Positions 45,776 through 47,699 of a stretch of DNA of 64,000 nt are shown here, piece by piece (the first letter of the stretch is position 1; each line of letters opens with the position of its first letter). The position numbers were made by a program, and so were the translations under genes. The notes below the pieces were generated by a model. It saw only the letters and a list, made by a program, of their open reading frames with translations, was not told where the DNA came from and searched no databases. Source of the DNA: a virus; the IMG/VR virus record IMGVR_UViG_3300012206_000007, positions 1 to 64,000 of that record. One strand, written 5' to 3'.

Positions 45776-46993
45776 GTGCCCGCCTACTACAACGAGAACG
45801 ACGCCTTCTGCGTCGCGTGGCTGAAGGCGCTGATTGCAGACGGGCTGATTGCGCCGGGTGATGTCGACGACCGCAGCATTGAGGCTGTGCAGCCGGAGGA
45901 CCTCCGAGGCTATGACCAAGGCCACTTCTTCGCCGGGATCGGGGGCTGGAGCTACGCCCTCCGCCTCGCCGACTGGCCAGACGACCGATTTGCTTGGACG
46001 GGCAGTTGCCCCTGCCAGCCCTTCTCGGTCGCGGGCAAAGGTGGCGGCCCAGCCGATCCCCGCCATCTTTGGCCAGCGTGGTTCCGCCTCATCGCAGAGT
46101 GCCGCCCTCCAGTCCTCTTTGCGGAGCAGGTTGGAGGACCGGCTGGCCTTGCGTGGCTCGACGCTGTTTACGCTGACTTGGAAGGAATTGGTTACGCCAT
46201 CGGGGCGGTCGATCTCCCGGCTGCGAGCGTCGGCGCGCCGCATCGACGACAGCGCCTGTGGGTCGTGGCCGACACCGACGAAGGACGAAGTGGGTGGGAC
46301 ACCCGAGCAGTTCCTTGCGCGGAAAGTGGCACTCGGGGGGAGGTGCGGCGTGTCGCTGACGGCGCTGAATCTGGTCGCGGAGCTGGTGGCGTGGCCGACG
46401 CCCTGCCAGCAGGACGGCCCGAACGGCGGACCGGCGCAGGGCACGGATCGTCTGCCAGCAGCAGCGATGGCGTCGTGGCCAAGTCCGAAGGCGAGCAATA
46501 CGACAGGGGCAGGGACGCGTGGCGAGGGAGGCGAGAACCTCCAGACGATGGCGGGCTGGGCCACCCCGACCCGCCGCGATCACAAGGACGGCGCCTCGGA
46601 CGGGACAGTACCGGTGAACGCCCTGCTCGGGCGGCAGGCGTGGCTAGCGGGCTGGCCCACCCCGGTGGGCCAAGATGCAGGAAACAGTACCCACTGCTAC
46701 ACCCACGGGAACCACGACCAGATCGCGCTGAAGCTGCCGGGAGTGGTGCTTCTGACTTCTGGACCGACTGCGTCTGGCTCCCCTGCCGCGACGGCAGGTG
46801 GCGACCGACTCAACCCGGCCTTCAGCCTCTGGCTCATGGGATACCCCACCGGGTGGGCACGTTGCGCGGCGCAGGCAACAGCATCGTCGCACCGCTTGCG
46901 GCGGAATTCATCCGTGCCTACAGGGAAACCTGTGATGAAAGTCTGCACGGGATGCAAGCAGTCGAAACAATCGACGGAGTTCTTCCGAGATAA
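45776..46993 (+). CDS. C5-cytosine DNA methyltransferase
   Basis: 405 residues from GTG 45776. Motif I is FAGIGGWSYAL (near residue 55), motif IV the catalytic CPCQPFSVAGKGG (near 78), motif VI is FAEQVGG (a variant of ENV), motif VIII QRLWVVAD (near 159). The middle is the target-recognition region, and motif X is RGAGNSIVAPLAAEFIRAY (near 363), preceded by CVWLPCRDGRWRPTQPG typical of phage Dcm proteins. It probably protects phage DNA from host restriction. The gene's last 59 bases overlap the HNH domain, and another long frame overlies it. Confidence 0.88.
   Translation: MPAYYNENDAFCVAWLKALIADGLIAPGDVDDRSIEAVQPEDLRGYDQGHFFAGIGGWSYALRLADWPDDRFAWTGSCPCQPFSVAGKGGGPADPRHLWPAWFRLIAECRPPVLFAEQVGGPAGLAWLDAVYADLEGIGYAIGAVDLPAASVGAPHRRQRLWVVADTDEGRSGWDTRAVPCAESGTRGEVRRVADGAESGRGAGGVADALPAGRPERRTGAGHGSSASSSDGVVAKSEGEQYDRGRDAWRGRREPPDDGGLGHPDPPRSQGRRLGRDSTGERPARAAGVASGLAHPGGPRCRKQYPLLHPREPRPDRAEAAGSGASDFWTDCVWLPCRDGRWRPTQPGLQPLAHGIPHRVGTLRGAGNSIVAPLAAEFIRAYRETCDESLHGMQAVETIDGVLPR
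45849..46934 (+). other. Second conserved-looking reading frame inside the methyltransferase gene
   Basis: A different frame is open across the methyltransferase and continues into the HNH domain without a stop. It shows a regular motif series: FTLTWKELVTPSGRSISRLR, SWPTPTKDE, AWPTPCQQDG, SWPSPKASN, GWATPTRRDHKDG, GWPTPVGQD, then RLNPAFSLWLMGYPTGW. That series (W-P-T-P repeats followed by an MGYP box) is familiar from phage proteins annotated as DNA methylases. Either it is a real overprinted product or the family in databases is the shadow of Dcm genes. Confidence 0.4.
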
Positions 46994-47399
46994 GCGACGG
47001 CCCCAAGGACGATTGGCTCGGTGCAAGCAGTGCAAGCGTGCCGCCTATCACCGTTGGCGAGTTGCGCATCCAGACATGGATAGGAACCGGTACTGGACAC
47101 ATCGGGATGCTGAACGGGAACGTCACTTGGTGAAGAAGTACGGAGTCACGTTCGCACGGTATGACGAACTGCTGGCACTGCAGGGCGGTAGGTGTGCCGT
47201 GTGCCACCACCTTGCGCCAAAGGGCCGCTTACTAGACGTGGACCACGATCATGCGACAGGGACAGTACGTGGCCTGCTCTGTACCGCCTGTAATCAGCTT
47301 CTTGGACACGCCCAGGATTCTGCTGCGCGCCTTCTAGAGGCAGCGCAGTATCTGTCCACGAGCACATCGCGGGTCCAGCCTGCACAAAAGGAGCGCCCG
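46935..47399 (+). CDS. Endonuclease VII-like HNH protein, open at its 3' end
   Basis: From ATG 46935 the protein reads CTGCKQSKQSTEFF, CKQCKRAAYHRWR, YDELLALQGGRCAVCH, LDVDHDHATGTVRGLLCTAC, NQLLGHAQDSAARLLEAAQY, i.e. an N-terminal zinc knuckle and a complete recombination endonuclease VII core (His-Asp-His plus CxxC pairs). No stop follows: the frame runs on through 47401 to 47699 and joins the next gene, and upstream it is fused to the overprinted frame in the methyltransferase gene. It may be a mobile HNH domain inserted between two genes or a resolvase-like enzyme. Confidence 0.82.
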
Positions 47400-47400
47400 A

Positions 47401-47699
47401 TGCCGAAGCGCCGTGAGACCACCTTGGCCGATGTCCTCGACTTCCTCCAAGGCGCCCATGTGGACGTGCAGAAGGCCGTACTCGGCCTTCTGAAGACGCG
47501 CGTGGCGGCAGCGGCTCCGCCGAAGCGGAAGATGCCGTCCGGCAGCCGACTGTCGCTCAGCGACGCGGCGCGTGAGTCGCTGGATGCCGCCGCACGGAAG
47601 CCGGCGAAGCCTGCGGCTAAGCCGCCCCAGACGGCGAAGCGCTCTGCCGCACCGGATGTGCCGCTGCCGTCCCTCAGTGGATTCCCCCCTACGTCCTGA
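47401..47699 (+). CDS. Hypothetical protein, in frame with the HNH domain
   Basis: 99 residues from ATG 47401, which has a very good CAAAAGGAGCGCCCG ahead of it, so it is probably made on its own as well as in a fusion. RETTLADVLDFLQGAHVDVQ and a KAVLGLLKTRVAAA helix are followed by a Lys/Ala/Pro-rich tail. Likely an original phage gene behind the methyltransferase that was joined by HNH insertion. Confidence 0.6.

Follow-up and report, generated by a model that had tools for sequence, protein, structure and literature searches.

A phage C5-cytosine DNA methyltransferase probably built from two chains encoded by fully nested genes

In the C5-cytosine methyltransferase M.EcoHK31I the gene of a small chain of 176 amino acids lies inside the gene of the large chain and is read in another frame. 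This two-polypeptide enzyme, specific for YGGCCR (Lee, Kam and Shaw 1995, via PMC3404938), has motifs I-VIII and X on the large chain and motif IX on the small chain according to the description in PMC3404938, and the title of the 1995 paper, as cited there, states that both proteins are required. The same description provides a second two-chain precedent, M.AquI, a C5-methyltransferase split into alpha and beta chains (PMC3404938). In phages, the ShiLan element consists of HNH insertions hidden out of frame in methylases (Arsenault et al. 2025, PMC11855218). We found no report of a nested overlap of this type in phages in the open-licence literature; an earlier description may exist.

Here we analysed a window of 64,000 nucleotides taken from a virus record of 68.7 kb. 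It harbours a methyltransferase gene (GC content 69%) whose frame-1 product of 405 amino acids matches phrog_363 (E 1.2e-70, profile search) and PF00145 (E 1.4e-14, Pfam search). A first-pass annotation, made from the sequence alone, had read this frame as a C5-cytosine methyltransferase with motifs I, IV, VI, VIII and X. All five can be located, and the catalytic motifs of the PF00145 family, including the PCQ of motif IV, are all in frame 1 (Table 1); motif VI has EQV in place of ENV. Frame 1 contains neither motif IX nor a box of the WLMG type, which sits in frame 2 instead, and motif IX and a target-recognition domain are not found on the same chain as the catalytic motifs. Across the recognition region frame 1 is a stop-free stretch of low complexity, and the DNA of the frame-2 box (46809..46856) reads TQPGLQPLAHGIPHRVG in this frame.

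Table 1. Positions of the methyltransferase frames, their motifs and the downstream genes in the window.
Feature	Position	Strand	Frame, basis or remark
Catalytic (alpha) C5-cytosine methyltransferase chain	45776..46993	+	Frame 1; phrog_363, PF00145, motifs
Motif I, HFFAGIGG	45923-45946		Frame 1
Motif IV, PCQPFS	46010-46027		Frame 1
Motif VI, FAEQV	46118-46132		Frame 1
Motif VIII, HRRQRL	46241-46258		Frame 1
Motif X, GAGNSIV	46868-46888	+	Frame 1; codon-position pattern back to frame 1 here
Nested second (beta) chain, up to HNH	45861..46934	+	Frame 2; phrog_1008, dual-coding tests
Helix-strand-strand element (LQSSL..GSTLFTLTWK..TPSGR..ASARR) over frame-1 motifs VI-VIII	46107..46247	+	Frame 2
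W-P/A-T/S-P modules (five boxes), probable target-recognition region	46266..46664	+	Frame 2
WPTP box	46266		Frame 2
WPTP box	46392		Frame 2
WPSP box	46476		Frame 2
WATP box	46557		Frame 2
WPTP box	46653		Frame 2
LNPAFSLWLMGYPTGW, assigned to C5-methyltransferase motif IX (LNPxxSxWLMGxP)	46809..46856	+	Frame 2; conservation in 194 loci, HHalign
HNH endonuclease VII-like domain, own ATG, without own stop	46935..47399	+	PF02945, phrog_2633; same frame as frame 2
99-aa basic gene, strong AAAGGAG ribosome-binding site, own ATG	47400..47699	+	In frame with HNH

Frame 2 is the +1 frame of frame 1 and is open from 45849 to 47699 (616 amino acids). As the first-pass annotation had noted, it contains five W-P/A-T/S-P boxes and then LNPAFSLWLMGYP, all located between 46266 and 46856, and runs without a stop into an endonuclease VII-like HNH domain and a 99-residue gene. 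Searched alone against protein families, frame 2 matches phrog_1008, labelled 'DNA methyltransferase' (E 2.7e-26), as well as PHROG 31772 and 27243; frame-2 proteins have no match above cut-off in Pfam and NCBIfam. A PDB profile search with frame 2 gave no significant match, and the confident Foldseek matches of the frame-2 model are to phage proteins of the same family only. The AF2 model of frame 2 has a mean pLDDT of 58.7 and is confident in two elements and no more, with values of about 80-92 over the helix-strand-strand element (residues 79-125). Confidence is low over the W-P-T-P modules, both in this model and in that of a single-chain relative (L446), and the fold of the recognition domain is therefore not seen.

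Viral contigs and bacterial genomes supplied three sets of homologous loci, of which one was selected solely by similarity to frame 1 and the other two by frame 2. In total 248 loci were examined, including eight annotated phage loci and the window, and 194 were left once those at least 90% identical had been removed. Frame 1 of the loci was detected with a profile, and a frame-1 methyltransferase is present in every locus picked by frame 2. As a null model, synonymous codons were shuffled within each gene, keeping the frame-1 protein and the codon usage, and stops were counted in the other frames over a region that starts upstream of the conserved frame-2 start. Such shuffles ignore shared ancestry; the +2 frame and single-chain genes serve as internal controls. 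Among the 66 non-redundant viral loci picked by frame 1 only, the +1 frame contains 24 stops compared with 251.5 expected and is fully open in 50 loci (2.1 expected), while the +2 control has 846 stops, with 801 expected. Both sets chosen by frame 2 give the same picture. In the reverse test, where the frame-2 protein is held, the recognition region of frame 1 has no stop in 193 loci compared with 625 expected, and the third frame is at expectation (1144 versus 1110 stops). Thus, as in overprinted genes, each frame is open and conserved beyond what the other demands, in both directions. The inner ORF has a median length of 330 residues from stop to stop (194 loci) and ends a median of 26 nt upstream of the frame-1 stop; it is therefore fully nested.

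The same depletion is seen in a second group of different viral C5-methyltransferases, fetched by a DNA pattern for NPxWVEWLMG, with 81 stops in the +1 frame against 441.6 expected and the +2 frame at expectation. HHalign shows the two sets of frame-2 proteins to be homologous (99.9%, E 1e-32), and PHROG 1008 is matched by each of the 48 aligned members of the second set. A third set, retrieved with the GFPCQDI motif of the enzymes themselves, comprised 59 full-length methyltransferases. In this set 27 genes have a +1 W(L/M)MG and 15 stops there compared with 115 expected; some other genes fetched in this way, e.g. L429 and L445, lack +1 depletion and serve as controls. Cultured examples of the nested arrangement include phages N15, epsilon15, K1H, Xanthomonas PhiXhv-5, Paenibacillus Bloom and Acinetobacter ABMM1. 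Both genes are annotated in K1H, PhiXhv-5 and Bloom. Overall, hundreds of phages and prophages carry the nested pair; annotation usually overlooks it or records a single ordinary methylase in its place.

We analysed the conservation of frame-2 residues in a per-site test that compares frame-2 entropy on the frame-1 codon alignment with codons redrawn by the synonymous usage of each gene. Upstream of the frame-2 start the entropy deficit has a mean of 0.07 bit per column, which is no real excess, and over motifs I-IV it is small (0.17 bit). It amounts to 0.84 bit per column over motifs VI-VIII, 0.72 bit in the recognition region and 1.00 bit around the WLMG box, and is down to 0.25 bit over motif X. 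In the final box W and L are each conserved in 100% of the 194 loci, M in 97%, G in 99% and the next P in 99%, while the frame-1 residue at the position of this P is a proline in just 51%. The W and T of the W-P-T-P boxes reach 93-95% conservation, compared with 56-65% for the frame-1 residue.

These data bear on the possibility that frame 2 is a mere shadow, with a +1 frame that stays open and seems conserved owing to methyltransferase conservation and GC-rich codon usage. For the window alone the openness of frame 2 is mildly unusual (P about 0.02 in synonymous shuffles at 69% GC), and S, T, R and P abound in much of frame 2, as they do in shadow frames. Synonymous shuffles of the same genes, however, give ten times more stops, and it is because of this comparative evidence, not the openness of the window alone, that frame 2 lies far beyond chance. 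Conservation of frame-2 residues reaches 97-100% at sites with a variable frame-1 residue, the effect holds in members of the second group with a GC content below 50% (14 stops versus 106 expected), internal Shine-Dalgarno sites are present (see below), and single-chain methyltransferases lack the effect, their +1 frame being near expectation (96 stops versus 127 in 25 loci). A shadow frame is refuted by the shuffles in both directions, the residue conservation and the GC strata, and we regard it as extremely improbable. Changes that are synonymous in frame 1 are hence not random or stop-creating in frame 2, as they would be in a shadow; the outcome is the opposite, a depletion of +1 stops. 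The alternative raised by the first-pass annotation, in which an entire database family would merely reflect Dcm genes read out of frame, finds no support, because frame 2 is real and probably the nested second chain of a two-subunit C5-methyltransferase; PHROG 1008 corresponds to a true second frame. Most likely, the PHROG family labelled 'DNA methyltransferase' is the partner chain.

The substitution pattern was derived from 3359 alignments of 75-96% identity as the ratio of substitutions at frame-1 codon position 3 to those at position 1. This ratio is 3.44 before the frame-2 start, 2.89 across the frame-2 N-terminus and 1.28 across motifs VI-VIII. In the recognition region it is 0.67 and 0.26, at the WLMG box 0.99 and at motif X 4.04. 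The dominant coding frame therefore goes from 1 to 2 and back to 1, with the return at motif X.

Start signals are found inside the gene. A conserved column 36 codons into the gene holds a frame-2 ATG in 117 of the 194 loci, and a Shine-Dalgarno-like site lies 4-18 nt upstream in 63% of the loci with that ATG versus 5% of those without. For the arginine codon forming the ATG, 75 of 189 loci use AGG or AGA, compared with about 17% gene-wide. Many relatives thus carry an initiation signal for the inner frame that consists of a Shine-Dalgarno site and an ATG. The ATG of the conserved column is absent from the window, where the frame-2 start is uncertain, with no obvious choice among TTG 45849, GTG 45858, ATG 45861 and ATG 45912, the last of which has GGAGG 12 nt upstream. 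In Acinetobacter phage ABMM1 (L540, 1074-1078), which has a methyltransferase of the MNELALFAGAGGG type, the inner start is 4 nt past the outer one (ATGAATGAG: MNE.../MSW...), and the two proteins therefore overlap over nearly their full length; L326 and L272 show a similar arrangement. Taken together, stop depletion, residue conservation, internal ribosome-binding sites and the codon-position pattern support the proposal of the first-pass annotation that the overprinted frame is a real product.

A programmed +1 frameshift after motif VIII that fuses frames 1 and 2 into a single-chain enzyme would agree with the change of the dominant coding frame near this motif. Rare natural ORFs (L357, L517, L518) do join the catalytic N-terminal half to frame 2 with its PTP boxes and WLMG, but without motif X; these are either natural frame fusions or sequencing errors. 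Frameshifting is made less likely by the conservation that frame 2 already shows over motifs VI-VIII, ahead of the switch, where a frameshifted enzyme would have no use for it, and by the start signals (Shine-Dalgarno site and ATG) that frame 2 has of its own. Moreover, because motif X is read in frame 1, the window family would require a further shift. We therefore consider a frameshift unlikely and favour separate translation of a nested second chain.

What the second chain contributes is suggested by relatives in which all parts are in one frame. The single-chain methyltransferases L382/L446 and L390 carry motifs I-VIII, PTP boxes, (V/L)SPxFVEWLMG or a near variant, and GNGVVPQ in a single frame, with PTP boxes that vary in number among single-chain relatives. 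Frame-2 profiles match these enzymes with E values down to 1e-16, and the box of the window aligns with them as well (HHalign 94%, E 1e-7). In a comparison of the single-chain profile with M.HhaI, a weak second segment pairs RRLSPAFVEWLMGLPEGW with RKLHPRECARVMGYPDSY (motif IX-X stretch, HhaI 271-307). The model of L446 has M.HhaI as its best match; its catalytic and C-terminal parts are confident and its recognition region is without a confident fold. Judged by these profile matches, frame 2 is homologous to the recognition and motif IX part of single-chain methyltransferases. Since frame 1 is without motif IX, this homology indicates that frame 2 carries the recognition region and motif IX, and the W-P-T-P region is the probable target-recognition region because the homologous region is in frame with the catalytic motifs in the single-chain relatives.

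Frame 2 might instead encode a protein of its own whose function has nothing to do with the methyltransferase, e.g. a regulator or a counter-defence factor, and which was overprinted by chance. Its N-terminal helix-strand-strand element, which has no counterpart in single-chain methyltransferases and no match in Pfam, NCBIfam or PDB, would fit such a protein. However, the PTP and WLMG parts share homology with the recognition and motif IX part of the single-chain enzymes, and it is precisely this motif (IX) that frame 1 is without. An unrelated function thus appears very unlikely, and a methyltransferase subunit remains the preferred assignment of frame 2.

A third layout is found in the split loci L272, L283 and L455-L490, where the alpha ORF stops after motif VIII and the beta ORF has PTP boxes and motifs IX and X; beta is in the +1 frame in 27 of 30 cases. 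In a tree of the catalytic part the window family forms one clade, and in the other groups loci of nested, split and single-chain layout are interspersed with one another. The W-P-T-P modules vary in order and number between frame 2 of L003, L004, L006, L008 and the window, with recurring modules such as TTRDHKDG..NVPTNSLLGREVW and NDTTGSTHCYSG..KICLKLPG; this pattern suggests an exchange of cassettes within the recognition region. The +1 protein of L331, a viral contig of 45% GC, has a helix-turn-helix-like insert (EFVNYMREQTSVKELHEKTGIKKTTVEHWFRR) that is also present in L308.

We then considered the region downstream of the nested pair. The HNH domain matches PF02945 (E 3.6e-24, 84.9 bits against a cut-off of 23.6) and phrog_2633 (E 2.7e-35), and the 99-aa gene has no family match in the PHROG and Pfam searches. 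The stop-free run from 45849 to 47699 would permit a real fusion of beta, HNH and the 99-aa frame, a protein of about 613 aa with a novel role that would exist alongside the nested pair. Of the 194 loci, however, the window is the only one in which frame 2 extends well beyond the frame-1 stop (by 706 nt), and the HNH domain and the 99-aa frame each have an ATG of their own, the latter with a strong Shine-Dalgarno site. The nearest HNH relative, 53% identical (L526/L527; L526 1321-1800), also lies downstream of a nested methyltransferase and starts at its own ATG, which overlaps the alpha stop. After this HNH a leftover copy of the motif X tail (VPQVAAQFIGAFLD) is found in the HNH frame; from its sequence we read it as the mark of an insertion, which apparently carried along a substitute 3' end. 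Another HNH is inserted in the same 3' region in phiKX1 (L004, 2260-2778), and HNH insertions thus recur at the methyltransferase 3' end in other frame relations. A hybrid protein with the HNH domain, as envisaged in the first-pass annotation, is improbable given its occurrence at one locus, the separate relative and the recurrent insertion, and the run-on in frame 2 is probably an incidental by-product of the HNH insertion.

Both frames of the methyltransferase gene are conserved and kept open. We consider it highly likely that two fully nested genes at this locus together specify a C5-cytosine DNA methyltransferase of two chains, similar to M.EcoHK31I. The alpha chain (frame 1) would supply the AdoMet and catalytic motifs I-VIII and X. 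The beta chain (frame 2, +1) would initiate inside the alpha gene, be translated separately and comprise, in this order, the helix-strand-strand element over motifs VI-VIII, the W-P-T-P modules for target recognition and motif IX. Alpha and beta may then assemble as one enzyme that methylates the phage DNA, possibly with an anti-restriction role.

What looked like a possible annotation artefact thereby becomes an enzyme architecture that can be tested. In phages and prophages, 'orphan Dcm' genes numbering in the hundreds probably depend for activity on a partner protein that is mostly unannotated, and cloning or modelling the annotated chain alone would therefore fail or mislead. The loci also constitute a large natural data set on two long proteins encoded by the same DNA, and single-chain, split and fully nested relatives are available for reconstructing the path between them. 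With modest confidence we propose in more general terms that a large share of phage C5-methyltransferases are obligate two-protein enzymes with a nested +1 specificity chain of 230-450 aa. Exchange of W-P-T-P cassettes in the inner frame would alter DNA specificity, the outer frame being merely an open passage to motif X, and the layout (single chain, split, nested) would have been gained or lost several times. Few fully nested gene pairs of phages would then be as long or as widespread.

The closest database families are PHROG 1008, 31772 and 26627, which comprise 'DNA methyltransferase' and unknown families, and frame 2 of the window matches PHROG 1008. This family is labelled methyltransferase although it is without a catalytic motif, and its overlap with phrog_363 genes is unmentioned there. 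With the ShiLan element the locus shares mobile HNH endonuclease genes within phage DNA methylase genes that are read in another frame. In contrast to ShiLan, the HNH of the window is at the 3' end past motif X, and frame 2 appears to be a methyltransferase part and not a mobile element. M.AquI likewise has catalytic motifs I-VIII and the recognition/motif IX part on two chains, exactly as in L272, L283 and L455-L490. In M.AquI and in these split loci motif X is on beta together with motif IX, whereas in the window it is on alpha and the genes are fully nested. The second chain of the window has about double the length of the M.EcoHK31I small chain, bears an additional N-terminal element and belongs to a phage family. 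In the description of M.EcoHK31I (PMC3404938) the predicted target-recognition domain is on the large chain, while the PTP modules of the window, with their homology to the recognition region, are on the second chain. The likeness to M.EcoHK31I is one of motif layout as given in this description: the large chain of the window carries motifs I-VIII and X, and motif IX is on the second chain.
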